Assembly (NCBI RefSeq): GCF_041361465.1
Contig: NZ_JBGKAC010000001.1
Coordinates: forward strand, 1,922,001 to 1,986,000
Source of the DNA: Halobaculum sp. MBLA0143
GTDB taxonomy: Archaea > Halobacteriota > Halobacteria > Halobacteriales > Haloferacaceae
Length of the DNA stretch: 64,000 bases
Reading direction: 5' to 3'
Shown here: positions 11,273 through 29,184 of the stretch, in pieces
Layout of the letters: each line of letters begins with the position of its first letter
Numbering within the stretch: the stretch's first letter is position 1
Translations under genes and position numbers: made by a program
The notes under the pieces: generated by a model
Databases searched by the model: none
What the model saw: only the letters and a program-made list of their open reading frames with translations
What the model was told of the DNA's origin: nothing

Positions 11273-13690
11273 TCAGTCTGTGAGGTCGTCGATTACGTCT
11301 TCGCGGAACTGGCGGTGACCGTCCAATTCATCAAGATCGGACTTTTCGATTCGTTCAAGTGACTCGTGGGCGCGGCGGAGTGCTTCGGTGTTGTTGCCGA
11401 GTTCGCGGTGAGCACGGATCGCGTTGCGGTCTGTCTTCAGGAACTCTCTGAAGTCGTCAATCTTGTCGTTTATCGCCGCCGCGTCCTCGAACTTCTCTCT
11501 CGCGTCGTCCCAGTCGTCCGTTTCCTCGGCAAGTACTCCAAGATTGTTGAGACTCTTTGCTTGGCCAACTGTGTCTCCTAATCCCCTTGATAGTTCTAGG
11601 CTTTCTTTGTAATATTCTCTTGCTTCAGAGTATATTCGTTTGTTCTGCGCTATTAGTCCAAGATTGTTGAGAGTTGTTGCCCGGCCGGCTGCATCGTCTA
11701 GCTCTTTTTTTAGCTTTAGGCTTTTTTTGTGGTATTTCTTTGCAATCGCGTAGTTTTCTTGGTTACGTGCGATTAGTCCGAGGTTCTCGGAACACGCTGC
11801 CAGACCGGATCTGTGATTTATTTCCTCAAACATGTTTCTACTTTTCTCATAGTACTTTTTTGCATTCTGGTAATTTTTTTGTCGTAGAGCTACTGATCCA
11901 AGATTGTGAAAACTCGTTGCACGACCAGCGATGTCGTTCAGTTCATCTTTTAGTTCCAAACTTTTTTTATGATACTTTTCTGCTTTATTTAAATTCCCTC
12001 TTCTTTTTTCAATTAAACCAAGATTCCCGAGAGCCGCTGCTTCCATGCTGTCGTCCTCAGTCTTCTCCAGAACGAACTCGTTTTCATCTGTCGCGTCGTC
12101 TAACTCCCCGGAATTAAGTTTCATCAATCCACGCAGATTCGCAAGCCGCTGACGGCTCCACGAGTCCGGTGGGTTGATGCCGGACTCCTCAGTCTTCCCG
12201 AACAGTGGTGTCAGCTTAGGCCGTCGCGCACCAATCTCGAATATCTCGAGCAGGAATTGTCCTCGAGACTCGTCGTACGGGTCGACTGACAACTCGTTTA
12301 GACAGTTCTCAAAGGACTGTCGACCAACTGCATCCTTTGCCAGTCGAACCAGAAACAGCTCTGACCACAACTCGTGGTTCGTCCCGAACGAGTTACCATC
12401 GCGGCTAAAAACAACTTTTTCATCCATATCGCCTCCTAGTAATCTAGTCACTTCGTTTTGTTCTTCCACATTACTGGCCAACCCGAGCAGTGATTGCTCT
12501 CGCACCGTGAACCCGGCTGCGTTCAGAACGTTCACTCCGATTGCGGTCTGACGGCGAAGCCGATCGGCCGCCGATAGACCTGTCTCTGGGCCATCGGGAG
12601 TTACGTCGTTATACACCTCCGCAACATGCCTCTCCAACGAAAACTCCGAGTTACTCCAATCTACCACAGGATGGCCAACGGGAAAGAAGTACGACAGCAA
12701 CAGCATCGCGCTCGCCTGATTGTCGTCGGTGATCCGGTCGTGAATCCTCTCGGGGTCCATCCGCACCGACTGCCCAGTCGCCCGCTCGAAGCTGTCGATC
12801 ACCCACTCCGTCTCGGTCGCTGTCAGCCCGCCCAGCGAAACCGTGTCGAGATTGTTCTTTGCAGCGATAATATCCCCCCAGCGATTACTGTCGGGCGCGA
12901 CCATGTCCGCGTCAGTGTCGTCGTCGGCAAGCCTCCGCGCCGTCTCGGTGATCCCGTCGTCCCACTCCGTCTCGCGGGAGTCGAACAGGAAACTCACCTC
13001 CTCGTCGTCCGCGAACTCGTCCAGCAGCGTGAACACGGGGAGGTGTGGCCGTCGTGTCGCGTCCGAGACGATCACCAACACCGGCTCTGGAGTCCGACGA
13101 ATCGCCGCGGCGAGTTCGTCGGTGTCGGTGATCTGCGCGCCGCTGCCGCGGTCGCGGTAGAGCACGCGACCGACGCCCTCCTCACCGTCCTCACCCATCC
13201 GCCACTGCTCTGCCACCTGACGGACGAGCGTGGACTTACCCGCCCCCGGAGCGCCGAGAACGACCCGTGCGCCCCCATCACGTAGCTTCTCGACCAACTC
13301 CGTCGTGAGCGAGCCCGACTCTTGATCGGGCGACACGCGATCCGCGGCGAATCCGCGGTGGATCTCGGCGAAGCGGAACTCCCGTCGCCAGCACGCCTCC
13401 GGGTCGACATCCGAGTCGTCGGTGAACCGCTCGGGCGGCAGCCAGGTGAAGCCGTGATCCGTCACGTCCACGGGGTCGCCATCCATCAGCGCCGCCGCGA
13501 GTGTATCCGGCACACGGCGACGCCGGTAGAGCCGTCTGGCGAACCTGTCGAGCCCGCTCCCGAAGAGCCGTTTCCGCACCGTCTTCGACGCGGTCGCGGC
13601 GAGAAGTCCACCCACACCGAGCGAGGTGACGACCCCGGCGGTCGTCGTGAGGAACCGCAAGACCCCGGAGACGACACTGGCGAGGTCCAT
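11273..13690 (-). CDS. membrane-anchored STAND-type P-loop NTPase with C-terminal TPRs
   Basis: 805 residues in three parts. Residues 8-35 form a hydrophobic helix followed by a basic patch (KTVRKRLF, RRLYRRRR), suggesting a membrane anchor. Residues about 120-540 hold an NTPase: Walker A GAPGAGKST at 146-154, Walker B-like VLVIVSDA at 204-211 and a sensor-like SFLFDSRE near 233-240, then a helical region as in STAND ATPases. From about residue 545 there are five or six tetratricopeptide repeats with a 40-residue period, recurring as NLGLIA...YxxAKKYHKKSLxLxxELxD. The TPR part (roughly 11570-12060) is clearly more AT-rich than the rest. The layout resembles NLR-like immune sensors and SARP/MalT-type regulators. 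A TATA-like CTTTTT lies 30 bases before the ATG. Confidence 0.82.
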   Translation of the reverse strand: MDLASVVSGVLRFLTTTAGVVTSLGVGGLLAATASKTVRKRLFGSGLDRFARRLYRRRRVPDTLAAALMDGDPVDVTDHGFTWLPPERFTDDSDVDPEACWRREFRFAEIHRGFAADRVSPDQESGSLTTELVEKLRDGGARVVLGAPGAGKSTLVRQVAEQWRMGEDGEEGVGRVLYRDRGSGAQITDTDELAAAIRRTPEPVLVIVSDATRRPHLPVFTLLDEFADDEEVSFLFDSRETEWDDGITETARRLADDDTDADMVAPDSNRWGDIIAAKNNLDTVSLGGLTATETEWVIDSFERATGQSVRMDPERIHDRITDDNQASAMLLLSYFFPVGHPVVDWSNSEFSLERHVAEVYNDVTPDGPETGLSAADRLRRQTAIGVNVLNAAGFTVREQSLLGLASNVEEQNEVTRLLGGDMDEKVVFSRDGNSFGTNHELWSELFLVRLAKDAVGRQSFENCLNELSVDPYDESRGQFLLEIFEIGARRPKLTPLFGKTEESGINPPDSWSRQRLANLRGLMKLNSGELDDATDENEFVLEKTEDDSMEAAALGNLGLIEKRRGNLNKAEKYHKKSLELKDELNDIAGRATSFHNLGSVALRQKNYQNAKKYYEKSRNMFEEINHRSGLAACSENLGLIARNQENYAIAKKYHKKSLKLKKELDDAAGRATTLNNLGLIAQNKRIYSEAREYYKESLELSRGLGDTVGQAKSLNNLGVLAEETDDWDDAREKFEDAAAINDKIDDFREFLKTDRNAIRAHRELGNNTEALRRAHESLERIEKSDLDELDGHRQFREDVIDDLTD

Positions 13691-15709: not shown

Positions 15710-16951
15710 TCAGGCGAGGTCGAACTCCACCGCCGACTCGCGGTCGGGGTGGTGGATCGCCTCGCCGGAGTCGGTGTCGAACAGGTGGAGCCGATCCGGC
15801 GGGAGTCGGAGCCCGATTCGGTCGCGTTCCCTCACGTCGGCGCCTCCGTCGACGGCAGCCGTGACGCTCGGTCCGCCGTCCAGCGTCGCGTGGACGAACG
15901 AGCGTTCTCCGACCGGTTCGGTGACGTCCACCGTCGCAGGCAGTGTCGTTCTCGTGTCACCCGTCTCGGTGACGACGACATCCTCCGGCCGGGCACCGAC
16001 CGTCACTCGGTCGAAGCCGTCGGCAGCGTCCACGAGTGGCTCGACGGCGGGGTAGTCGACCGGTCCGGCGAACCCGTCGCGCTCGGCGCGCATCGAGAGC
16101 GTGTTCATCGAGGGCTCACCGACGAACTGCGCGACGAACAGGTTCGTGGGTTCGTGGTAACAGTCCATCGGCGGCGCGACCTGTTGGATCTCGCCGTCCA
16201 ACAACACGGCCACCCGGTCACCCATCGTCATCGCCTCCGTCTGGTCGTGCGTGACGTAGACGGTCGTCACGCCCAGGTCGCGTTGGAGCTGTTGGATCTC
16301 CGTCCGCATCCGGGCCCGGAGGGTCGCGTCCAGGTTCGACAACGGCTCGTCCAACAGGAACACCGACGGGTCGCGGACGATCGCCCGTCCGAGTGCGACG
16401 CGTTGTTGTTGACCGCCGGACATCGAGTCTGGAGTGTCGTCGAGTAGCTCGGTCACGTCGAGCGTGTCGGCGACCGACTCCACCTCGGCGGCGATCTCCT
16501 CGTCGGAGAGGTTCGTCGTCATCCGCAGGCCGAACCCGATGTTCTGGCGAGCCGTCATGTGTGGGTACAGCGCGTAGTTCTGGAACACCATCGCGGTGTT
16601 GCGCGCCTCTGGTTCGAGTCCGAGCACGGACTGGCCGTCGATCCGGACGTCTCCGCTCGTCGGCTCCTCTAACCCGGCGATCATCCGGAGTGTGGTCGAC
16701 TTCCCACAGCCGGACGGACCGACGAGAACCAACAGTTCGCCGTCACGGAGCGACAGGGAGAGGTCCTCGACCGCCGTCGCGGAGTCACCGTACGTCTTCG
16801 TCACGTCCGTCAGTTCGAGCGGCACCCCGGTCTCCGACCGACGACGGGCTTGACCGCCGTCTGTCGTCGCCCGGTCGTCTGTCTGTTCGGCGTTGCGCGG
16901 AGATTCGCGGTGGCGTGTCCGTTCGGCGCCACGTCTGTAGTCGTCTGTCAT
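15710..16951 (-). CDS. ABC importer ATPase, UgpC/MalK type
   Basis: Nucleotide-binding subunit of a CUT1 sugar importer. 413 residues: a 42-residue charged N-terminal extension, Walker A GPSGCGKST at 78-86, Q-loop MVFQNYALYPHMT, signature MSGGQQQR, Walker B VFLLDEPLSNLD, H-loop VYVTHDQTEAM, and a C-terminal regulatory OB-type domain (GARPEDVVV). The start ATG at 16951 overlaps the upstream permease stop by four bases; the longer open frame upstream is antisense-type readthrough over the permease gene. Last gene of a four-gene minus-strand operon. Confidence 0.93.
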   Translation of the reverse strand: MTDDYRRGAERTRHRESPRNAEQTDDRATTDGGQARRRSETGVPLELTDVTKTYGDSATAVEDLSLSLRDGELLVLVGPSGCGKSTTLRMIAGLEEPTSGDVRIDGQSVLGLEPEARNTAMVFQNYALYPHMTARQNIGFGLRMTTNLSDEEIAAEVESVADTLDVTELLDDTPDSMSGGQQQRVALGRAIVRDPSVFLLDEPLSNLDATLRARMRTEIQQLQRDLGVTTVYVTHDQTEAMTMGDRVAVLLDGEIQQVAPPMDCYHEPTNLFVAQFVGEPSMNTLSMRAERDGFAGPVDYPAVEPLVDAADGFDRVTVGARPEDVVVTETGDTRTTLPATVDVTEPVGERSFVHATLDGGPSVTAAVDGGADVRERDRIGLRLPPDRLHLFDTDSGEAIHHPDRESAVEFDLA

Positions 16952-17871
16952 CCTTTGAGTGATCCTTCGACGAGTCCTTTCACGAAGTACCGCTGCAGTC
17001 CGAGGAAGACGAGGATCAACGGGAGCATCCCGATCACGCTCGCGGCCGCGATGGCACGCCAGTCGTTGCCGTACTGGCCCTGGAACTTGTAGACGCCGAT
17101 CGAGATGGTGTGGAGCCGGCTCTCGCTCCGCAACACCGTGAACGCGAGGACGAACTCCGACCACGTCAACACGGTGTTGAAGATGCCGACGACCGCGATC
17201 CCCGGAGCGACCGGGCGCAACAACACGTACCGGAGCGTCTGGAGTCGATTGCAGCCGTCGATCCGGGCGGCGTAGTCCAACTCCACCGGAACCGTGTCGA
17301 AGTACCCCTTCAACAGCCAGATGGAGAAGGGCGTCTGGATCCCGACGTACAACAACACGAGTCCGGCACGGGTCCGGAGCAGCCCCAGCGTCGACATCAC
17401 CGTGTACAACGGGACGATGATGATCACCGGGGAGATCATCTGGAACAACAACACGATCCCGAGCAGCCCACGCCGGCCCCGGAACTCGAACCGGGAGAAG
17501 GCGTACGCTGCCGGCACGGAGACGACCAAGATCCCGCCGACACCGAAGACCGTGACTATCGTCGAGTTCAGCAGCCACGTCGCCACCCCGGCGTCGATCA
17601 CCTGTTGGTAGGCCGTCAGCGAGACCTCCGCGGGGAACAACCGGAACGGGGAGCTGAACAGCCCACCCTCCTGTCGGAGACTCGCGGACACCACCCAGAA
17701 CGCCGGGAACACGAAGAAGACGATCGCGACGGCGTACAGGGTGTACACCGCGGCGTCGACGACCGTCGGAGTCGTGACCGTCTCGGTGAGTCGTCTGAGT
17801 CGGCCCGTGGGCTGTCCGTGTCGGGTCGTGACGGATGTCCCGCCGTCGGATTTGGGTTCGTCGGTCGTCAT
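16948..17871 (-). CDS. carbohydrate ABC transporter permease (MalG/UgpE type)
   Basis: Second membrane subunit of the CUT1 importer, 307 residues, six predicted helices beginning VDAAVYTLYAVAIVFFVFPA. The ATPase-contact EAA-like loop reads YAARIDGCNRLQTLRYVLLRPVAPG. ATG at 17871 overlaps the preceding permease stop by four bases; the frame stays open farther upstream over that gene, but this part has no permease character. Substrate not deducible from the subunit. Confidence 0.92.
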   Translation of the reverse strand: MTTDEPKSDGGTSVTTRHGQPTGRLRRLTETVTTPTVVDAAVYTLYAVAIVFFVFPAFWVVSASLRQEGGLFSSPFRLFPAEVSLTAYQQVIDAGVATWLLNSTIVTVFGVGGILVVSVPAAYAFSRFEFRGRRGLLGIVLLFQMISPVIIIVPLYTVMSTLGLLRTRAGLVLLYVGIQTPFSIWLLKGYFDTVPVELDYAARIDGCNRLQTLRYVLLRPVAPGIAVVGIFNTVLTWSEFVLAFTVLRSESRLHTISIGVYKFQGQYGNDWRAIAAASVIGMLPLILVFLGLQRYFVKGLVEGSLKG

Positions 17872-18803
17872 ATCTCCTCCGAGATGTCGAAGGCGTAGAG
17901 GTACACCGCGGTGAGCGCGAGGTTCGCGACCAACATCACGACCGCGATCGACGCTCCGCGGCCGAGCGCGTTGTCCTGAAACGCCTCCTGGTACATGAAC
18001 AGAGCCAACACCTGTGTCGACCGGCCGGGACCGCCACCGGTCAGGGCGAAGATCAGGTCGAACGTGTTGAGCGCGTAGATCGTCACCAACACGACCGTCA
18101 CGAACAACACGGACTTCAGCTGCGGGAGCGTGACGTGGCGGAACCGGTCCCACCGTCCGGCGCCGTCGACACGGGCGGCCTCGTACAGTCGTTGTGGGAC
18201 CCGTTGGAGCCCGCCGTAGATCATGATCATCGAGAAGGCCGTGCCTCGCCACGTTCCCGCGACGATTGTCGACACCAACGCCAGCGTCGGGTCGGACCGG
18301 AACGGCACCGGCCCGATCCCGACCAGCCCCAAGAAGTAGTTCATCGCGCCGAGCTCGCTCTCGACGAGCATCACCTTCCAGACGAGTCCGATGATGATCC
18401 CGGGGACGATCCACGCGAGCAACACCGACACGCGGGTCGTGAGGTGCCCACGGAGCCCGCGCCGGACCCCGTAGTCGATGGCCAGCGCGAGCACCAGTCC
18501 GAACAGGACGTGGAGCACGACACTCGAGAACGCGTAGATCGCCGTCACCCGCAGCATCGCCCAGAACTCGGGGTCGGTCACGAGTCGGGCGTACTGTTCG
18601 ATCCCGACGAACTCCGTGTCCGTGGTGACGAGGCTCTCGTTGGTGAAGCTCATCGACACGGCCTCCACCATCGGGTACAGTTGGAACACCCCGAGCAACA
18701 CCAGCGCCGGGGCGAGCCACGGCACTGGGTGGTCCAGCAGTCGGCGTCCCACGGCCCGGAGGCGGGAAGACGAGCCGTCTGTCGTCGGATCGATCCCCGT
18801 CAT
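17868..18803 (-). CDS. carbohydrate ABC transporter permease (MalF/UgpA type)
   Basis: First membrane subunit of the CUT1 importer, 311 residues: VPWLAPALVLLGVFQLYPM is helix 1, followed by the periplasm-facing loop with SFTNESL, and the EAA loop YEAARVDGAGRWDRFRHVTLPQL contacts the ATPase. Overlaps the second permease by four bases and lies 30 bases after the substrate-binding protein gene, so all four genes are probably cotranscribed. Confidence 0.93.
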   Translation of the reverse strand: MTGIDPTTDGSSSRLRAVGRRLLDHPVPWLAPALVLLGVFQLYPMVEAVSMSFTNESLVTTDTEFVGIEQYARLVTDPEFWAMLRVTAIYAFSSVVLHVLFGLVLALAIDYGVRRGLRGHLTTRVSVLLAWIVPGIIIGLVWKVMLVESELGAMNYFLGLVGIGPVPFRSDPTLALVSTIVAGTWRGTAFSMIMIYGGLQRVPQRLYEAARVDGAGRWDRFRHVTLPQLKSVLFVTVVLVTIYALNTFDLIFALTGGGPGRSTQVLALFMYQEAFQDNALGRGASIAVVMLVANLALTAVYLYAFDISEEI

Positions 18804-18833
18804 CTGTGGTGTCGAGCAGTCGGTCCCGTCGTG

Positions 18834-20216
18834 TTAGCTGGCATCGTACTCGTCGGCGACGTTGGTGATCATCGTCTCGGCCGCCGACTCGGGGTCGGCC
18901 TGGTCGGTTACGACGTTCTCGATGGCGATCACGTACTCGGAGGCGATGGTGCTGTAGATCGGTCGTGGCGGACGAGCGACCCCGTCTTGGAGGAACTCTC
19001 GGAACCGATCCTGGTACGGGGTGTCGGGGTCGTACAGCTCCTCGTCGTCGAACACCGACTCGCGGGTCGGCAGCAGCGCCGCCGACTCACAGTACCGCCC
19101 CATCGACTCCGGTTCGACGAACTTCGCGATGAACGACTTCATCGCGTCCGCGGCCCCGTCGTCGCTGCTGCGGAACGTCCCCTCGGTCCACCCACCGACG
19201 CCGGTCGTGTGTTCCCCGTCGGCCGGGCGTGGGATCTTGGCGACCTTCCACCGTTCCCACCGGTCGTCGGGGACCCCGTCGTCGGCCTCGATAGGGTTCT
19301 TGATGTTCCGTTCGATCTGGTCGTTGTTGCCGACGAACATCGCGAGGTTGCCGGCACGACCCTCTCGTGGGAGGAACTCCACTTCCTCGATACTCGCGAC
19401 GCGCTGGGGGGTGACACCCGTGTCGACGAGATCACGGACGAACGACAGCGCGTCGACGAGTGCCTGCCGGTTCGCGTCCTCACCCAACACCGGCGCACCC
19501 GAGTCGTCGAGCAGTTCACCGCCCGCACTCCAGAAGTACGGGAGGTTCGTGAGCGCCGACGACGTCGGGAACATGAACGCGTCCATCTCCTCGCCTGCGT
19601 CGATCTCCTGGCCGACGGTCAACAGTTCCTCCCACGTCGTCGGCGGGTCACCGTCGTTGTACGTGTCGAGGACGTCCTGTCGGTAGTAGAGACACCGACA
19701 CCCCGTGTACTTCCAGGCCGCCAACAGGTCGCCGTCCCGCACCGCGGTCTCCCTGACGAACGGGAAGAAGTCGTCGATGTCGTCGACGTAGTCGTTCAGC
19801 GGTTGGAGGTACTCGTAGAAGTCCGCCACCCACTTCGAGTCGAGTGTCGACCCGTCCGGGGCGTTCCCTTCGGCGGCACTCGTCAGGAGGTTGTTCTTCC
19901 ACTGCCCGAACGCCGGGTACTTGACGTCGATCCGGTAGTCGGGGTGGTTCTCCGCCCACGCCTCGTGTTGTTCTTTCAGCGCCGGCGCCGCCGCCGGTTG
20001 GTCGCTCTGTTCTTCGATCGGTGTGTAGAACGTGCTCGTCTGGTACGTGAGCGGTGTCTCACCCTTGCCGAACCGTTCGTGAGTGATCGTCGGTGCCGAC
20101 TCGTCGACACTGCCGCCGGAGTCGCCACCGAGACAGCCTGCCAGACCGCCGACTGCTCCCGCGCCGACTGCCGATACGACTGTGCGCCGTGGAAACTCCC
20201 GCGTTTCGTCTGCCAT
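18834..20216 (-). CDS. Tat-exported lipoprotein, sugar ABC substrate-binding protein
   Basis: Extracellular solute-binding protein family 1, 460 residues. Twin-arginine motif FPRRTVVSAVGAGAVG leads to lipobox LAGCLG, then a Gly/Ser linker, as usual for haloarchaeal surface lipoproteins. Seen in the body: QEIDAGEEMDAFMFP, FVGNNDQIERN and WERWKVAKIPRPADG. Likely ligand is a carbohydrate or polyol from its CUT1 partners; the sugar is not readable. Promoter: a TTTTTTAAATC box about 33 bases before the ATG. First gene of the importer operon. Confidence 0.93.
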   Translation of the reverse strand: MADETREFPRRTVVSAVGAGAVGGLAGCLGGDSGGSVDESAPTITHERFGKGETPLTYQTSTFYTPIEEQSDQPAAAPALKEQHEAWAENHPDYRIDVKYPAFGQWKNNLLTSAAEGNAPDGSTLDSKWVADFYEYLQPLNDYVDDIDDFFPFVRETAVRDGDLLAAWKYTGCRCLYYRQDVLDTYNDGDPPTTWEELLTVGQEIDAGEEMDAFMFPTSSALTNLPYFWSAGGELLDDSGAPVLGEDANRQALVDALSFVRDLVDTGVTPQRVASIEEVEFLPREGRAGNLAMFVGNNDQIERNIKNPIEADDGVPDDRWERWKVAKIPRPADGEHTTGVGGWTEGTFRSSDDGAADAMKSFIAKFVEPESMGRYCESAALLPTRESVFDDEELYDPDTPYQDRFREFLQDGVARPPRPIYSTIASEYVIAIENVVTDQADPESAAETMITNVADEYDAS

Positions 20217-20331: not shown

Positions 20332-22569
20332 TCAGTCGTTCACGTCGTCCAGCCGCTCGGACACTACCGTCTCCCCCATCGCGGTCAGTCCGGGGTCGTC
20401 TTCCACGTCGACCAGCCCTCTCGCCGAGAGCGACTCCAGAATCTGTCCGACACCCTCCGGGTCCACGTCCAACAGCATCCCGACGTCCATCTCGTCGCCG
20501 GCCGAGTACAGCGCGACGAGCGTCTCCGTCTCCGCCTCGGAGAGGTCCAGGTCCCGGAGACGTTCCTCTCGCCGGCGGTAGTCGTGGGTGATCCGGCGTT
20601 CGAGCACCCGGAACAGTCGGTCGTCGGCGGCGCCGAACTCCGTCGTCACGGTGTCGCCGCCGTCGTGGTGGCGGACCTTCACCGCCTTCCGGGTGTCGCC
20701 GCCGTCGGCGACCCGTTGGCGGCCCCGCTCGGCGTGGACCAGTTCCGTCGGGTGGATGGTCGTCACCGGTTCGCCGTCGGCGTGGAACGCGAGCCGTCGC
20801 CCCTCGGGGACGACCGTACAGGGGCGCGGGCGTTCGTCCGTCACACGGCCACCGATCCGGGCGGGGTGAGTGACGAGTACGGTCTCGTCGGCCAGCAGCG
20901 CCTCGAACAACGCGTCGGCGGCGTCGACCTGGCGGCGACCGGGGAACTCGCCGACGGCGAGCCGACGACGGCCGTCCCGGCGGTACGCGACCGCGACGGT
21001 GTCGTCGAACACGTCGTCCATCCCGTCGGGGACGTAGTCGACGGCCACGTCCACGACGGCGGACAGCGGGATCGTCACCGTCTCGTCTGCGGCGACGACC
21101 ACCTCGTCGGCGCCGAGGACGACCCGGGCGTCCGTCGGCTGGCCGCCGTTCAGCCCCGCGACCGCGACTCGGACGGACTCCGTCAGTCGGATCGGCTCCG
21201 TCGCGCGGTTCCGGGGCGCCGCCGACGCCTCGCCGGCGTCCGGACCGAGCCGAGGCCCTGTGGTCTCCGCGGGTGAGTCTGTTCCGGCGCCCCCCGGGCC
21301 GTCGGCACCCGTCGTCGACTCCGCCCCATCACCCGGCGACTCGTCGCTCGTCGCCGTCGGCTCGTCCGGGTCGTCCGTCTCGTCCAGCCTCGTCGGTGGC
21401 GACGTGGGCGTCGTCGTCCCCCGAGTCGTGCTGTCGGCCGCGGGGTCGTCGGCGTCGTCCCCAGCGCCGTTCGTCGTGTCGCCTGGGGTGTTGTCCGTGG
21501 TGTCCTCCACGGTGATGTCCGTGGTGTCCTCTACGGTGCTGTCCGTGGTGTCGTCCCTGGCGCTATCCATCGCGTCGCCTGCGGTGCTGTCCGTGGTGTC
21601 GTCCCTGGCGCTATCCATCGCGTCGCCTGCGGTGCTGTCCGTGGTGTCGTCCTCGGCACGGAGTCGCGTCGGCAGCGTCGACACCGGACCGGCGTCCGTC
21701 CGACGGACGTGGTCGTCGTAGTCACGGTACACCGGGCCGTGACGCGCCGAGTCGTAGTCCGTCTCCGGCGGTACGTCCGACGGCCGGGGGTTCGACAGCC
21801 GGCGGCCGTCGCCGCCGGCGGCGCGCTCCGCGCGCCACGCGGCGTCGAAGGCTCGCGGGTCGAACGGTTCGTCGGGCAGCGGCGTCGGGTCGGCGACCGA
21901 CGGGAACCGGTCGGGGTCGAGCCCGTCCGTCCGTGAGTCGCCACACCGGGCCGCCAGCGCGTCCGCGGCCGCCGTCCCGTGGCGGCGGACGAACGCGCGG
22001 GCAGTGTCGTCGTCCGTGCCGACGAGCGCCGCGAGCGTCGCTCGCTCGGCGCCGACTCGGGCGAAGAAGGCCGCGGCCGTCGCGCGGAGCCGGCGGGGGT
22101 CTACGCCCGCGGGGTCGACGCCGGCGGCGGCGTCGGCGGCGGCCGCGAGCCCGCGCTCGAACGGCCGGCCCTCGTGAGTGTACTCGCGGTCTCGCCGTCT
22201 GTCCAGCGTGTGGGCGAGGACCGCCGTCAGTCGCCGGGACCAGCCGAACGACACCGTCCGGCCGCCGTGTGGCGGCTCCCAACACCGGTCGGACAGGACC
22301 GACAGCGCGGACTCGTCCGTCTCGGCGGCGGCCTCACGAGCCGTCTCACAGCAGTCCCGACAGGCACACGGCTCGCCGGCGGGGACGCGAAGACGACCGG
22401 CCGCCCAGTCCACCCACCCCTCGTGGAGGTGCCGCAGCGCCGCCGGCCCGAGACCGAGACGGGCGCCACACAACACCGCCGCCGGCGCCGCGCCGCCGAC
22501 GGCGACGGCGCCACGGTACAGCGACACGACGACCGGCGCCGGCAACGGCTCCGTCTCCCGTATCGACAT
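20332..22569 (-). CDS. fusion of degenerate tyrosine-recombinase-like domain and CheF-like domain
   Basis: 745 residues. Residues about 10-205 follow the pattern of haloarchaeal phage-type integrase catalytic domains: GARLGLGPAALRHLHEG in place of box I, a cysteine cluster CACRDCC at 68-74, WEPPHGGRTVSFGW, and LRATAAAFFA at 161-170 resembling HALRATAATHH of box II with the His lost. The final helix LVGTDDDTARAFV has Phe where the catalytic Tyr is expected, so it is probably inactive. Residues about 215-459 are a low-complexity Asp/Thr/Ser linker with repeats. Residues 460-735 look like archaeal CheF (DARVVLGADEVVVA, HPARIGGRVTDE, ETLVALYSAGDEMDVGMLLDVD), the adaptor linking CheY signalling to the archaellum. 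Function of the fusion is inferred only. A TTAATATTAGG box precedes the gene. Confidence 0.7.
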   Translation of the reverse strand: MSIRETEPLPAPVVVSLYRGAVAVGGAAPAAVLCGARLGLGPAALRHLHEGWVDWAAGRLRVPAGEPCACRDCCETAREAAAETDESALSVLSDRCWEPPHGGRTVSFGWSRRLTAVLAHTLDRRRDREYTHEGRPFERGLAAAADAAAGVDPAGVDPRRLRATAAAFFARVGAERATLAALVGTDDDTARAFVRRHGTAAADALAARCGDSRTDGLDPDRFPSVADPTPLPDEPFDPRAFDAAWRAERAAGGDGRRLSNPRPSDVPPETDYDSARHGPVYRDYDDHVRRTDAGPVSTLPTRLRAEDDTTDSTAGDAMDSARDDTTDSTAGDAMDSARDDTTDSTVEDTTDITVEDTTDNTPGDTTNGAGDDADDPAADSTTRGTTTPTSPPTRLDETDDPDEPTATSDESPGDGAESTTGADGPGGAGTDSPAETTGPRLGPDAGEASAAPRNRATEPIRLTESVRVAVAGLNGGQPTDARVVLGADEVVVAADETVTIPLSAVVDVAVDYVPDGMDDVFDDTVAVAYRRDGRRRLAVGEFPGRRQVDAADALFEALLADETVLVTHPARIGGRVTDERPRPCTVVPEGRRLAFHADGEPVTTIHPTELVHAERGRQRVADGGDTRKAVKVRHHDGGDTVTTEFGAADDRLFRVLERRITHDYRRREERLRDLDLSEAETETLVALYSAGDEMDVGMLLDVDPEGVGQILESLSARGLVDVEDDPGLTAMGETVVSERLDDVND
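21493..21653. repeat. 24-bp and 48-bp tandem repeats in the fusion protein linker
   Basis: Two 24-bp units beginning gtccgtggtgtcctc (21493-21540) are followed by two identical 48-bp units (21541-21588 and 21589-21636) and a partial third. In protein they encode Asp/Thr/Ser-rich blocks (DDTTDSTAGDAMDSAR and variants). The exact identity of the 48-mers indicates recent duplication. Confidence 0.95.
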
Positions 22570-22769
22570 TCTACCAGACTGTTTCGCTGCCTAATATTAA
22601 CGTCTACGAAACGAGTCCCGCCGGCGGGAGGTCGGTCGCTACGCCGACGCGACCGAACCGGCTTCGTACAGTTCGACCGGCGGAACGGCTCTGCGTCAAG
22701 TATCTGTATTTATAGTCTTTGTCTAAAATCTCGTGGTCTTTTTGTTTCAGGCCTTGAGCAGGCGATACG

Positions 22770-22800: not shown

Positions 22801-24537
22801 ATGTCACGATCTGACGAACACGAACGGAGCACACGACGACGGGTGCTGGCCGCGATGGGCAGCGGGACGGTAGTCGGGTTGGCCGGCTGTGCCGGGCAGG
22901 GCGGCGAAGAGACCGAGACGGAGTCGGAGTCGGGTGGGGGAGAGACGGACACACAGACGGACGAGGAGGTCGACCCGTCGGACGTCCAGACTGGGGAGTT
23001 CGTCGCCTCCGCGGCGGCGAACCCCGGAACGTTCGACCCGACGGTCATCACGGACGCCACCTCCAACTCCACCATCGGCGCGTTCTCATACGAGACGCTG
23101 GTCGCGCCGTTGTTCGACCTCTCGGAGTTCCGGGGGGAGCTGGCGACGGACTGGAGCGTCGACGGCTCGACGTACACGTTCCAGATCCGGGAGGGCGTCA
23201 CCTTCCACACCGGCAAGGAGATGACGGCCGAAGACGTGGCGTTCTCGTTGGAACGGACCCGTGGAACGACCAACGGCTCCGACGTGTCTTGGTTCGACTC
23301 CACGAACGTGCTCGGCGACTACGAGATCGAACTGGAGGCGCCGGACCCACACGCGCCGTACCTCACGAACCTCTCGGCGGTGCCGATCCTGCCGAACGAC
23401 GTGGACGGGGTGTCGACGAGTCCCGGAGAAGACGACTTCGCGTTCACGGAGGAGTCGATCGGCACCGGGCCGTTCCTGCTCGACACGTTCTCGCCGGAGG
23501 ACCGCGTCGTGTTCACCCCGTACGAGGACTACTGGTACGACGGGGACGACTACCCGACGACTGCGCCGTGGGACCAGGTGACGGTCCGTGTCATCACGGA
23601 GCAGGTCACCCAGGAGGAGGCGATGGCCAACGGGGAGCTCGGGATGATCGACAACGCCGCCCCGTTCGAGCTCCAGCAGTGGGAGAGTCAGACCGGGACG
23701 GTCGTCGCCGACAGCGCCGTCGGCTACGACTTCGTCACCTACCCCGTCGAGGTGTCGCCGTACGGCAACAACAAGTTCCGGCGGGGACTGACGAAGCTGA
23801 TCCCACGGGCGGAGATCATCGAGGCGATCTTCGGCGGGCGAGCCACGGGACTCGCCGGCCCGGTCAGCCCCGGACTGGGTGCGTTCTTCGACGCCGAGCG
23901 CGAACAGGAGCTGATCCAAGAGTACGTCGCCGAAGACAAGGGAGAGGCGGTCTCGCTCATCCAGGAGGCGTTGGACGAGGAGGGGGTCGAGACCCCGTTC
24001 CAGATGTCGCTCATCACGAACGTCAACCGCACCCGGGAGCGGTGGATGGAGGTGATCCAACAGGCGTTCGACGACACGGAGGTGCTGTCGGCAGAACTGG
24101 AGGTGCGGGCGTTCGACGACCTCGTGCCGTTCCTGTTGGACCCGGAGGGGGCCGCCCAGTCGTCGGACGTGGTCGGCATCGGCTGGACGGGCGGCTCCGA
24201 CCCCAACGGCCACGTCGAGGGGCTGCTCGCCTCGTACAACCACGTCCCGGACGGGTTCAACTGGAACCTCTACGAGAGCGAGGAGATGGACTCGCTGATC
24301 GAGGAGGGCCAGACCACCGTCGGCACGGAGGCGCGCCGGCCGATCTACGACGACATCCAGGAGCTCGTCGCCGACGATCTCCCGATGGCGAACATGTGGA
24401 CCGCCGAGAAGCTCGACGTGGTGAACCCGGACGCCGTCGACGACGTGAACAACTGGCAGCCACACCCCAACTCCAGCAACCGCTACGACACGCTGTACAG
24501 CCCACACCTGGACCAGGTGACCTACCCACCGCAGTGA
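22801..24537 (+). CDS. Tat-exported lipoprotein, peptide/nickel-type ABC substrate-binding protein
   Basis: Family 5 extracellular binding protein, 578 residues from the ATG at 22801; the frame is open upstream but that part is shadow. Twin-arginine motif TRRRVLAAMGSGTVVG with lipobox LAGCAG, then an acidic linker. Typical family 5 segments: WSVDGSTYTFQIREGVTFHTG, TAEDVAFSLERT and IGTGPFLLDTFSPEDRVVF. Captures di- or oligopeptides or a related ligand for the permease/ATPase genes downstream. 147 bp separate it from the first permease, compatible with higher expression of the binding protein. Confidence 0.94.
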   Translation: MSRSDEHERSTRRRVLAAMGSGTVVGLAGCAGQGGEETETESESGGGETDTQTDEEVDPSDVQTGEFVASAAANPGTFDPTVITDATSNSTIGAFSYETLVAPLFDLSEFRGELATDWSVDGSTYTFQIREGVTFHTGKEMTAEDVAFSLERTRGTTNGSDVSWFDSTNVLGDYEIELEAPDPHAPYLTNLSAVPILPNDVDGVSTSPGEDDFAFTEESIGTGPFLLDTFSPEDRVVFTPYEDYWYDGDDYPTTAPWDQVTVRVITEQVTQEEAMANGELGMIDNAAPFELQQWESQTGTVVADSAVGYDFVTYPVEVSPYGNNKFRRGLTKLIPRAEIIEAIFGGRATGLAGPVSPGLGAFFDAEREQELIQEYVAEDKGEAVSLIQEALDEEGVETPFQMSLITNVNRTRERWMEVIQQAFDDTEVLSAELEVRAFDDLVPFLLDPEGAAQSSDVVGIGWTGGSDPNGHVEGLLASYNHVPDGFNWNLYESEEMDSLIEEGQTTVGTEARRPIYDDIQELVADDLPMANMWTAEKLDVVNPDAVDDVNNWQPHPNSSNRYDTLYSPHLDQVTYPPQ

Positions 24538-24684
24538 GCGGACGCGGCGCGCACTGATCGGTCGGCGGCGGGACGTGTTCGCCGCCGACACACGCAAACG
24601 GCGGAGCGACGACGAACACAGCGACCACGACCGACCCATCCGAACGATACACACCGTGTCACACACTACCGATACACAAACACG

Positions 24685-25635
24685 ATGAGTCTGCAACGGT
24701 ACGTCCTGAAGCGAACGCTACTCACGATCCCGTTGTTGTTGGGGATCACCGCGATCACGTTCGGGATGGTCCACCTCATCCCCGGCGACCCCATCGACTT
24801 CGTCACGTTGTTCACCGACCTGGACCCGGAGACGAAAGCGGAGATCCGCGCACAGTACGGCCTGGACGATCCGGTGTGGCTCCAGTACGTCAACTGGGTG
24901 ACGGACGCCGCACAGTTCGACTTCGGCCGGTCGATCATCACGCGACGGCCGGTGGCCGCCGAGATCGTCGACCGGCTGCCGTTCACCCTCGTGATGGGGA
25001 CGATGGCGTTCGGCGTCGCGGTACTCACCGCCATCCCCGCGGGTGTCGCGGCCGCCTACTACCGGAACACGCTCGTCGACCAGTTCTCCCGAGTGTTCGC
25101 GCTCGTCGGGATCGCCATGCCGAACTTCTGGCTCGGGCTGCTCCTGATCCTGGTGTTCGGCAACTGGCTGGATATCTTCTCCATCCTGCCGCCGACGGAG
25201 AAGGGGTTGTTCAGCCCGGCGATGCTGTCGTACACGATTCTGCCGGCGTTGGCCATCGGCACCGGCTCCACCGCACTCCTGATGCGGCTGATGCGGTCGT
25301 CGATGGTGGAAGAGATGGACAAAGACTACGTCCGGACGGCCCGCGCGAAGGGACTCCCGGAGCGGACGGTCGTGACGAAACACGTCCTGCGGAACTCGCT
25401 GATCTCCGTCGTCACCGTCGCGGCGATCCAGATCGCGTTCATCGTCAGCGGCTCCGTCGTCGTGGAGATCGTCTTCGCGTACCCCGGACTCGGCCGGCTG
25501 TTGGTCAACCGGGTCGGTAACCGTGACTTCCCGGTGATCCAGGCAGTCGTGTTGTTGATCGGTGTCTCCGTGATCCTCGCCAACCTGCTCGCGGACGTAC
25601 TGTACGCGTATCTCGACCCACGGATCAGGTACTGA
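24685..25635 (+). CDS. peptide-type ABC permease, DppB family
   Basis: 316 residues, six membrane helices. N-terminal QRYVLKRTLLTIPLLLGITAITF and HLIPGDP are typical of DppB/OppB; the EAA loop is VRTARAKGLPERTVVTKHVLRNSL. Works with the DppC-type subunit two bases downstream. Confidence 0.95.
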   Translation: MSLQRYVLKRTLLTIPLLLGITAITFGMVHLIPGDPIDFVTLFTDLDPETKAEIRAQYGLDDPVWLQYVNWVTDAAQFDFGRSIITRRPVAAEIVDRLPFTLVMGTMAFGVAVLTAIPAGVAAAYYRNTLVDQFSRVFALVGIAMPNFWLGLLLILVFGNWLDIFSILPPTEKGLFSPAMLSYTILPALAIGTGSTALLMRLMRSSMVEEMDKDYVRTARAKGLPERTVVTKHVLRNSLISVVTVAAIQIAFIVSGSVVVEIVFAYPGLGRLLVNRVGNRDFPVIQAVVLLIGVSVILANLLADVLYAYLDPRIRY

Positions 25636-25637
25636 CA

Positions 25638-26711
25638 ATGGCTACCAGAGAGCAATCGACCGAACGCGGACGCATCACCGTCGAGGGGTTCGACGTGAAC
25701 AGAGTGCTGGAGCGGGACGACATCTCCTCGTGGACGCCGTCGTTCCGGGAGGAGGCCGGTCACGGCCGGTGGTACTACGCCTGGCGTCGGTTCAAGCGCA
25801 ACCGACTCGCCCTGTTCGGCGCCGCCGTCATCGGGCTGATGGTGTTCCTGGCGGTGTTCGCCCGACCGATCGGCCTCCCGTCGGAGCTGCCGGTGTTGGC
25901 CGGCCAGACGGTCCAGCCGTTCTCGCTGGCGCCGGCCAACCCCGCCGAGCAGGACATCCTGACCGGCCACACGCCGCCGTCGCTCGACAGCTTCGGCAAC
26001 GACGAGCCGCTGGGGCTCCACCTGATGGGGACGGACTGGGCCGGCCGCGACATCCTCTCGCGGGTGATCTTCGGCGGGCGGTGGAGCATCTCGCTGGGGT
26101 TCATCGCAGTCGCCGTCGCCCTACTCATCGGTGTTCCGTTGGGCGCCATCGCCGGCTACTACGGCGGCTACGTCGACAGCGCGATCATGCGGCTCGTCGA
26201 CATGCTGTACGCGTTCCCGTTCATCGTGCTGGCGATCGCGGTGATCGCCATCCTCGGGCGAGGGTACTGGGAGTTGGTGTTCGCGCTCGTCGCGGTCGGC
26301 TGGCTGTCGTACGCCCGGATCGTCCGCGGGGAGGTGTTGAGCGTGAAACAGAACGAGTACGTCACCGCCGCGCGGGCGCTGGGGGCCCGGGACCGATCCG
26401 TGATCCTCAGGCACATTCTGCCGAACGCGATGGCCCCGGTGATCGTCCAGGCGACGCTGTCCGTCGGGACGACCGTCCTCACCGCGGCCGCCCTGGGGTT
26501 CATCGGACTGGGACTGTCGCCCGCCACCGCCGAGTGGGGGGTCATGCTGAACGTCGAGCAGGACTCCATCGCCCGCGGCCAGTGGTGGGCCGGGGTGTTC
26601 CCGGGGCTCGCCATCTTCCTGTTCGTGATGGCGATCAACCTCGTGGGCGACGGCGTCCGGGACGCCTTCGACCCACAGGGTGACAAGACCGGCTCCGGGG
26701 GGTTCCGCTGA
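25638..26711 (+). CDS. peptide-type ABC permease, DppC family
   Basis: 357 residues. N-terminal cytoplasmic stretch, a first helix LALFGAAVIGLMVFLAVFA, a long external loop ending LHLMGTDWAGRDILSRVIFGGRWSISLG (the DppC hallmark GTDxxGRD), then helices and the EAA loop YVTAARALGARDRSVILRHILPNA. Its stop overlaps the ATG of the ATPase gene by one base. Confidence 0.95.
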   Translation: MATREQSTERGRITVEGFDVNRVLERDDISSWTPSFREEAGHGRWYYAWRRFKRNRLALFGAAVIGLMVFLAVFARPIGLPSELPVLAGQTVQPFSLAPANPAEQDILTGHTPPSLDSFGNDEPLGLHLMGTDWAGRDILSRVIFGGRWSISLGFIAVAVALLIGVPLGAIAGYYGGYVDSAIMRLVDMLYAFPFIVLAIAVIAILGRGYWELVFALVAVGWLSYARIVRGEVLSVKQNEYVTAARALGARDRSVILRHILPNAMAPVIVQATLSVGTTVLTAAALGFIGLGLSPATAEWGVMLNVEQDSIARGQWWAGVFPGLAIFLFVMAINLVGDGVRDAFDPQGDKTGSGGFR

Positions 26712-27805
26712 TGGCGATGCTGGAAGTCGAAGACCTGAACGTCAGGTTCTACACGGAAGACGGCGTCGTGAAGGCGACACAGAACCTCTCGTACCAGATC
26801 GAGGCTGGCGAACGGTTCGGTGTCGTCGGGGAGAGCGGCGCGGGCAAGTCAGTCACGAGCCTGGCCGTGATGCGGCTGATCGACGAGCCGGGCGTGATCG
26901 AGTCCGGCTCGATCCGGTTCAAGGGGCGCGAACTGCTGGATCTCTCCCGCGAGGAGATGCGGGAGGTCCGGGGCGACGAGATATCGATGATCTTCCAGGA
27001 CGCCGAGACGGCGCTGAACCCCGCTTACACCGTCGGCGAACAGATCGCCGAGGCGATCCGGCTCCACATGGGGTACGACGACGACGCCGCCCGGGATCGG
27101 ACGGTAGAGCTGTTGGAACAGGTCGGCATCCCCGACCCCGTCGAGCGCTACTCCGACTACCCACACCAGTTCTCCGGCGGGATGCAACAACGCGCGGTCG
27201 TGGCGATGGCGCTGTCGTGTGACCCGGACCTCATCATCGCCGACGAGCCGACGACCGCACTCGACGTGACGATCGAGGCGCAGATCCTCGACCTCCTGGA
27301 GACGGTGACCGAGGAGTTCGACACCGCGATCCAGCTCATCACCCACGATCTGGGCGTCGTCGCGGAGTTCTGCGACCGACTGATGGTGATGTACGCCGGC
27401 CACCCCGTGGAGATGGCCCCGGTCGAGGAGGTGTACTACGACCCACAACACCCGTACACCGTGGGGCTGATGAGTTCGATCCCGCGGATCGGCGACGAGC
27501 GCGACCGGCTCCAGACGATCCCCGGCCGGATGCCGGACCTGATCGAGCTCCCCTCCGGCTGTAACTTCCACCCCCGGTGTCCGTACGCGGAGGAGGCCTG
27601 CACCCGACGGGAGCCGCGGCTCGTCGACGTCGACACCGGGGAGCCGGCGGACGCGAGCGACCACGGCCAGCGGTCGGCCGCCTGTCTGGCCCACACCGGG
27701 GAGCTCCGGGGTGAACTGGACTACACGGTGACGGTCGACCACGAAGACGACGCTACCGCGGCCGACGGCGGTCGCCCAGCCGACGACGAGGGGGTGGGAC
27801 GGTGA
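26711..27805 (+). CDS. peptide-type ABC ATPase, DppD family
   Basis: 364 residues. Walker A GESGAGKS, Q-loop MIFQDAETALNP, signature FSGGMQQR, Walker B LIIADEPTTALD, H-loop LITHDLGVVAE; C-terminal Cys motif FHPRCPYAEEACTRREPRL followed by AACLAH, as in oligopeptide transporter ATPases that may bind an Fe-S cluster. Start ATG at 26711 or 26717. Overlaps the next ATPase gene by four bases. Confidence 0.95.
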   Translation: MAMLEVEDLNVRFYTEDGVVKATQNLSYQIEAGERFGVVGESGAGKSVTSLAVMRLIDEPGVIESGSIRFKGRELLDLSREEMREVRGDEISMIFQDAETALNPAYTVGEQIAEAIRLHMGYDDDAARDRTVELLEQVGIPDPVERYSDYPHQFSGGMQQRAVVAMALSCDPDLIIADEPTTALDVTIEAQILDLLETVTEEFDTAIQLITHDLGVVAEFCDRLMVMYAGHPVEMAPVEEVYYDPQHPYTVGLMSSIPRIGDERDRLQTIPGRMPDLIELPSGCNFHPRCPYAEEACTRREPRLVDVDTGEPADASDHGQRSAACLAHTGELRGELDYTVTVDHEDDATAADGGRPADDEGVGR

Positions 27806-29184
27806 GCCAGAACGGGTCGACGGCAGGCGCCGCCGACGGCGGTCGTCGACCGGGCGAGGAGCCGTTGTTGCGGGTGGAGAACCTGAAGAAGTACTACGAC
27901 TCCGACAGCGGCTTCCTCGACCGACTGCTGGGGCGGACGGCGAAGGTGAAGGCGGTCGACGGCGTCTCCTTCGAGATCTACGAGGGGGAGACGATGGGGC
28001 TGGTCGGGGAGTCCGGCTGCGGGAAGAGCACCGTCGGACGGACGATTCTCCAGCTCCACGAGCCGACGGCGGGGCGCGTCTACTACCGCGGCCGCGACAT
28101 CACCGGACTGGACGGCCAGGAGCTGCGCGAGCTCCGCAAGGAGATGCAGGTCGTGTTCCAGAACCCACAGTCCAGTCTCAACCCCCGGCTCACGATCAAC
28201 GACATCATCGGCGAGGCGTTGGACATCCACGGCCTGGAGTCCGGCACCTCCCGCGACGAACGGATCAAGGAGCTGTTGGAACGAGTGGGGCTGTCGGCGA
28301 GTCACGCCAACCGTTACCCCAACGAGTTCTCGGGGGGCCAGCTCCAGCGCATCGGGATCGCCCGCGCGCTGGCGGTGGATCCGGAGTTCATCGTCTGTGA
28401 CGAGCCGGTGTCGGCGCTGGACGTGTCCGTCCAGGCGCAGATCCTCAACCTCCTGGACGACCTCCAGGCGGAGTTCGGGCTGTCGTACCTGTTCATCGCC
28501 CACGACCTGAGCGTGGTGGAACACGTCTCCGATCGGATCGCCGTCATGTACCTCGGCGAGGTCGCGGAGCTGGCGAGCCCGGACGAACTGTTCACCCCGC
28601 CACAGCACCCGTACACGGAGGCGTTGCTGTCTGCCATACCGGAGCCGGACCCGGGCTGGGTGGGCGACCGAATCATCCTGGAGGGGAGTGTCCCCTCGCC
28701 CATCGACCCACCGTCCGGCTGCAAGTTCCACACGCGGTGTCCACGGGTGATCCAGCCGGAGGCGTTCGAACTGGAGCAGCCGGAGTGGCGGGCCGTGTTG
28801 GACCTGGTCGAACGGATCGACGGCGGCGGGGTGGACTTCGACACCGCCGAGTCGCTGGTGTCGTCGGGAGACGCGCCGGATCTGGCGGCTGCCGTCAGAG
28901 CGGAGTACGACGTGCCGGAGACGCTGTCGGACCCGGAGGCGGAGCGGGCGTTGTCTACGGCGGTGTCGGCGGCCGTCGAGGCGGCGCCGGGGGCGGCGGA
29001 GACGGACGTCGCCGAGACGTTCGCGTCCCCGTGTACGACCGCCGAGCCGGAACTACGCGAGATCGACGGGGGTCGAGCGTCCTGTCACCTGTTCGATCCG
29101 GAACACGCCGACCCCTCGCCGGAGATCGCCCCGCGACAGACGAGCGACGAACGGGTGAACGACCGACAGGCGGGTGACGACTGA
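27802..29184 (+). CDS. peptide-type ABC ATPase, DppF family, with C-terminal insertion
   Basis: 460 residues against about 330 for bacterial DppF. Walker A GESGCGKST, Q-loop VVFQNPQSSLNP, signature FSGGQLQR, Walker B FIVCDEPVSALD, H-loop FIAHDLSVVEH. The C-terminal motif is split: FHTRCPRVIQPEAFEL is separated by about 110 residues of acidic, helical sequence from FASPCTTAEPELREI and ASCHLF, where they normally adjoin. This insertion pattern is familiar from haloarchaea. GTG start overlapping the DppD-type gene. Last gene of the importer operon. Confidence 0.94.
   Translation: MSQNGSTAGAADGGRRPGEEPLLRVENLKKYYDSDSGFLDRLLGRTAKVKAVDGVSFEIYEGETMGLVGESGCGKSTVGRTILQLHEPTAGRVYYRGRDITGLDGQELRELRKEMQVVFQNPQSSLNPRLTINDIIGEALDIHGLESGTSRDERIKELLERVGLSASHANRYPNEFSGGQLQRIGIARALAVDPEFIVCDEPVSALDVSVQAQILNLLDDLQAEFGLSYLFIAHDLSVVEHVSDRIAVMYLGEVAELASPDELFTPPQHPYTEALLSAIPEPDPGWVGDRIILEGSVPSPIDPPSGCKFHTRCPRVIQPEAFELEQPEWRAVLDLVERIDGGGVDFDTAESLVSSGDAPDLAAAVRAEYDVPETLSDPEAERALSTAVSAAVEAAPGAAETDVAETFASPCTTAEPELREIDGGRASCHLFDPEHADPSPEIAPRQTSDERVNDRQAGDD

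Follow-up and report, generated by a model that had tools for sequence, protein, structure and literature searches.

The reverse strand of the analysed window, a stretch of 64,000 nucleotides from Halobaculum sp. MBLA0143, carries a gene (20332..22569, ATG start) for a protein of 745 residues in which an inactivated tyrosine-recombinase domain is joined by a linker to a CheF domain. The same architecture recurs in further haloarchaea, where both halves are kept under purifying selection, and the trees indicate that the fusion arose once. We see about even chances that the protein is an accessory CheF output adaptor which still receives CheY-P and to which a domesticated integrase domain, no longer catalytic, has given a new target. 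The CheF and recombinase families are themselves known; new here is a CheF paralogue with a domesticated partner domain. Nothing relevant on CheF together with a recombinase, or on inactive tyrosine recombinases in haloarchaea, was found in the open-access literature (subscription journals and preprints were outside the scope of that search). The remark of the first-pass annotation that such a combination was not known to it agrees with this result.

Layout and fold of the two halves

The recombinase-like part comprises residues 1-212 (21934..22569, reverse strand, as all features of the gene) and was delimited by alignment, model and fold searches. It is followed by a conserved extension, EPFDP...NPRP...DYD (residues 213-275, 21745..21933), which sequence comparison revealed to be common to the fusion protein and to longer unfused recombinase-like proteins. 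An acidic, variable linker rich in Thr, Asp and Ser (residues 276-460, 21190..21744) is marked by low conservation, and its dN/dS is higher in some of the fused pairs. A 16-residue repeat, DDTTDSTAGDAMDSAR, is present twice in the linker (21530-21660) of the window protein only and is absent from its relatives. The CheF domain occupies residues 461-745 (20332..21189), and its C-terminal domain, recognised by comparison with solved CheF, residues 674-745 (20335..20550) with the ending ..DDVND. A TATA-like box, TTAATATTA (22592..22600, reverse strand), is located 23-31 nt upstream of the start codon and suggests that the fusion gene has its own promoter, with a leaderless transcript or a short leader. 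The opposite strand, which a simple gene caller favoured, is ruled out by homology, by the two confident folds and by dN/dS.

The region of residues 1-212 has no Pfam or NCBIfam match of its own. A PDB sequence search with the single window protein gave no match, and the profile of the fused N-terminal domains gave only a weak match to the integrase 3nkh (E 0.78), which ranked under unrelated chance matches. Therefore the fold was assigned through homologues and a model. Nine of ten scanned unfused relatives match Pfam Phage_integrase (best E 1.4e-15), and fused homologues match PHROG integrases directly (E 1.6e-7). The AlphaFold model of residues 1-260, built with 44 relatives, has a pLDDT of 90.5 and a pTM of 0.87; rows 1-27 of the Foldseek search against solved structures and rows 1-40 of the VIA-align search (Z up to 13.6; XerA and others) are all tyrosine recombinases. 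As modelled, residues 1-212 form a tyrosine-recombinase catalytic fold. The two motifs that had been reported for this half are indeed present, CxCxxCC at residues 68-74 (22348..22368, placed by the 44-row alignment) and LRATAA at residues 161-166. R37, H47, W52, P63, C68, C70, C73 and R104 are invariant in all 44 alignment rows, and the three invariant cysteines of CxCxxCC might form a metal site together with H47.

The resemblance of the C-terminal half to CheF, also proposed earlier, is borne out by the Pfam CheF-arch match at residues 475-664 (E=2.7e-29), whose 102.9 bits lie above the cutoff of 25. Residues 461-745 were modelled with a pLDDT of 93.6; the first solved match of this model is CheF 7ovp (E=3.4e-14), and according to it these residues are a CheF with two PH-like domains and a helical C-terminal domain. 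Structure prediction of each half and profile searches, for the N-terminal half those of its homologues, had been suggested as checks and agree on one protein with both folds.

The collected haloarchaeal CheFs fall into two groups in the tree, one with EAMNEQ-like ends and one with xxVNx ends. The former is nearer to the CheF of P. horikoshii and M. maripaludis, with median BLAST bits of 64 vs 40 and 56 vs 28, respectively. The fused CheF domains are nested inside the xxVNx group. The main CheF, OE2402F, is essential for switching, while the second haloarchaeal CheF, OE2404R, binds CheY, CheD, CheC2 and archaellum accessory proteins, and its deletion in H. salinarum causes a weak phenotype only (Schlesner et al., PMC2666748). 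We infer that the xxVNx group corresponds to this second haloarchaeal paralogue of the OE2404R type.

The C-terminal domain of CheF binds CheY-P and dimerises, and a position facing ArlCDE has been proposed for the PH-like domains (Altegoer et al., PMC9126983). Comparison of the sequences showed that conservation of the fused CheF is highest in the C-terminal domain and that the PH-like domains have drifted. Identity between fused proteins and the paralogue is 0.33 for the C-terminal domain vs 0.28 and 0.26 for the two PH-like domains; among the fused proteins the C-terminal domain is as similar as within the paralogue (0.41 vs 0.39), whereas for the PH-like domains the similarity is lower (0.37 and 0.29 vs 0.45 and 0.40). 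Thirteen of 14 fused proteins lack the Phe at the start of PH1, which never varies in the paralogue, and 13 of 14 lack Arg158 (model numbering). The terminal Val-Asn is retained in ten of the 14 and lost in Halovenus and in one further genome (G026).

Loss of the active site

The catalytic set Arg-Lys-His-Arg-His/Trp-Tyr was scored in 44 rows, made up of 14 fused proteins, 22 short integrases and eight longer unfused recombinases. In the window protein the box-I Arg is replaced by Gly41, the hairpin Lys by Pro100, the box-II His by Arg159 and the Tyr by Phe193, and the box-III Trp is deleted, so that the second Arg (R162) is the sole catalytic residue left. The first-pass annotation had named the loss of the box-II His and of the nucleophilic Tyr and hence somewhat understated the damage. 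Among the fused proteins Lys and Trp are gone in all 14, His in 13 and Tyr in 12 (nine times replaced by Phe), whereas the first Arg is gone in five and the second in two; none has a complete set. The question raised earlier, whether homologues keep the loss of His and Tyr, can be answered positively for most of them, the exceptions being Halosimplex salinum, the only one to retain the box-II His, and two proteins in which a Tyr aligns. The short integrases nearly always retain Arg-Lys-His-Arg-Trp-Tyr (the exceptions are one His and one Tyr); the longer unfused recombinases retain Arg, Lys, Arg and Tyr in eight of eight, His in six and Trp in seven. Judged by these residues, the fused integrase domain is catalytically dead.

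Both halves are under purifying selection: pairwise dN/dS among the fused proteins is 0.12-0.44 for the N-terminal domain and 0.11-0.36 for the CheF half. The values of the N-terminal domain imply that selection maintains it although it is dead.

Distribution, origin and genomic context

The fusion was searched in 316 genomes of two haloarchaeal families and found intact in 15 of them, which are spread patchily over eight genera in both families (f1: G000, G001, G003, G165, G296, G473; f4: G026, G138, G155, G280, G294, G410, G427, G431, G442). Named carriers include Halohasta litorea, Halohasta salina, Halovenus carboxidivorans, Halosimplex aquaticum and Halosimplex salinum. A sample of 391 genomes of the class contained no frame of fusion size outside the two families. 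One more genome (G002) contains a fusion fragment at a contig end. Two further copies are altered. In G023 (L022:5543-7638) the gene is split in the linker by a frameshift into two overlapping frames, with a GTG start over a TGA stop, which may be a mutation, a sequencing error or a real split. The metagenome-assembled genome G456 (L147:1489-1926) has a remnant of 146 residues, in which the start of the integrase domain is joined straight to the CheF C-terminal domain; an internal deletion or a misassembly may account for it.

In the tree the fused integrase domains group together as one clade (100/99), and the longer unfused recombinases are their closest relatives. The fused CheF domains likewise form one clade (100/99), which includes a single unfused CheF from Halovenus carboxidivorans. 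The two clades indicate that the fusion arose once. The gene of that unfused CheF (L066:8221-9147) adjoins the fusion gene; its product is fast-evolving and without the Val-Asn tail.

The unfused kin of the N-terminal domain are of two kinds, short haloarchaeal integrases (about 225-290 residues) and longer proteins (about 380-556 residues). The longer ones share the extension behind the domain with the fusion and have hydrophobic ends, which by eye resemble membrane helices. Four tyrosine recombinases with an intact active site and a hydrophobic C-terminus (L070:5700-7139, L071:6024-7463, L072:6375-7814, L074:6838-8277) are encoded directly downstream of a recurrent three-gene set in Haloferax, Halorubrum and Halobiforma. 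The largest protein of this set, of about 1160-1215 residues, contains UvrD-helicase and PD-(D/E)XK nuclease domains, and the other two are without Pfam match. The set with its recombinase resembles a mobile or defence-type module.

In the window the fusion gene is located between a sugar-type ABC operon (15710-20216, reverse strand) and an oligopeptide ABC operon (22801-29184, forward strand). The flanks resemble each other among the Halohasta genomes, among the Halovenus genomes and between two genomes of a third genus (g53), but differ between genera, and no neighbour gene common to all carrier genera was found in the neighbourhoods compared. The gene has stable positions in unrelated core-chromosome contexts. 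Plasmid and phage collections gave no match to the fused protein, and viral contigs matched one unfused relative only, hence there is no sign of current mobility. Elsewhere in the window, an 805-residue protein with a STAND NTPase (nSTAND_NTPase5) and TPR repeats is encoded at 11273-13690 on the reverse strand.

We also looked at the position relative to archaellum genes, a check named in the first-pass annotation. No che or archaellum genes were recognised near the fusion gene, neither in the window nor in the other neighbourhoods examined. This position does not exclude membership in the CheF family, since CheF paralogues outside the che cluster are already known in H. marismortui (PMC2666748). 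ArlD/E and at least one ordinary CheF are encoded in all 12 fusion genomes tested, but the association with motility is statistically weak because CheF is present in 234 of 391 genomes of the class and the 12 genomes fall in few genera.

Possible function and relation to known systems

How such a protein could have become an accessory adaptor may be outlined as follows. A CheF of the second haloarchaeal type would have captured an integrase-family domain once, and the captured recombinase would have lost catalysis and been kept as a docking module. The CheF tail would still bind CheY-P and dimerise, the drifted PH-like domains would have given up the usual docking on ArlCDE, and the dead recombinase domain would offer a different contact, to another protein, to further copies of itself or to DNA. 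The place or manner of action of the tethered protein would then be under the control of CheY-P, in parallel to ordinary CheF at the motor. That the N-terminal domain is a non-catalytic docking module is likely in our judgement, and the conserved tail domain makes CheY-P binding by the fused CheF probable. In favour of this adaptor are also the CheF fold, the nesting of the fused CheFs in the xxVNx group, the selection on the dead domain, the presence of ArlD/E and ordinary CheF in the 12 genomes tested and the tolerance of ordinary CheF for an N-terminal GFP (PMC9126983). For contact with ArlCDE, the drift seen in the PH-like part may be of little consequence. The loss of the Val-Asn tail in some carriers, the missing shared gene partner and the patchy distribution count against an adaptor.

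In a rival reading the dead domain still recognises DNA, with CheY-P at the CheF tail modulating transcription or chromosome attachment. Recombinase catalytic domains bind DNA by nature, and the fused proteins retain nine of 13 basic positions, a position being counted when at least 60% of the nearest unfused relatives have a basic residue there. However, the basic residues 96 and 100 of the catalytic hairpin are gone in 14 of 14 fused proteins, those at 139 and 211 are mostly gone, and the net charge of the core is -3.5 per 100 residues vs +1.0 in the short unfused integrases. DNA binding by the N-terminal domain is plausible from these residues, but to name DNA as its ligand is tentative and somewhat doubtful. 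Dead recombinases that eukaryotes have domesticated, among them yeast Cbf2/Ndc10 and Gcr1 (PMC3212892), offer a precedent for a DNA-binding regulator or tether, which nevertheless appears rather unlikely. The first-pass annotation is thus borne out in part: both domains and the conserved inactivation are confirmed, whereas its suggestion that the protein couples motility signalling to DNA is one reading among several that deserve consideration.

Another possibility is a redundant second CheF that works at the archaellum as an ordinary motor adaptor, the recombinase part being an inert passenger which adds bulk, stability or oligomerisation. It would fit with the function of CheF carrying GFP at the N-terminus, though not at the C-terminus (Altegoer et al., PMC9126983), and with the mild effect of deleting the second CheF (PMC2666748). 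We hold it to be quite improbable, given that purifying selection on the N-terminal domain is as strong as on CheF, that its CxCxxC/His set is invariant and that the PH-like domains have diverged further than those of ordinary CheF. Intact active sites in the nearest unfused relatives, some of which are found in recurrent, mobile-looking modules, could suggest a decoy against mobile elements, carried by CheF, that poisons the integrase assemblies formed by related elements; since that leaves the conserved CheF half without a role and the fused protein has no PADLOC match, such a decoy is highly improbable. Least credible of all is an artefact or a decaying pseudogene. The frameshifted copy and the deleted remnant described above could be taken as its traces, yet 15 intact copies in two families, the single origin and dN/dS values well below 1 oppose it. 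An artefact or chimera of the assembly, once considered for the junction, is ruled out by the recurrence of the architecture in independent assemblies together with its one origin.

An accessory adaptor that reads CheY-P would have consequences for archaeal chemotaxis, which would then have an output other than the ordinary motor adaptor. A second output of CheY-P in some archaea, by which the dead integrase-CheF acts on the chromosome or on another non-motor target, is unlikely in our estimate, and the output question is directly testable in named species of Halohasta, Halosimplex and Halovenus. The fusion is a recurrent, selected architecture of one origin and traceable source, which unites the fold of a mobile-element enzyme with CheF, a switch adaptor specific to archaea.

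Compared with CheF (PF04283, DUF439; OE2404R type, PMC2666748), the last 285 residues of the fusion are alike in fold, with the two PH-like domains and the C-terminal domain, but the fusion differs in the extra N-terminal recombinase domain and the long linker, the drifted PH-like domains and the off-cluster gene. With the haloarchaeal tyrosine recombinases (PF00589; PHROG 216) it shares the fold and the CxCxxC, GRLGL and LRAT motifs, whereas the active site is retained in the unfused relatives and broken in every fused protein. A parallel in kind is given by the Crypton-derived DUF3504 proteins and yeast Cbf2/Gcr1 (PMC3212892), in which a tyrosine recombinase that lost catalysis is likewise kept in a multi-domain host protein. 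These are eukaryotic, of independent origin and without a chemotaxis partner, and the haloarchaeal fusion is a prokaryotic counterpart to their domestication through loss of catalysis.
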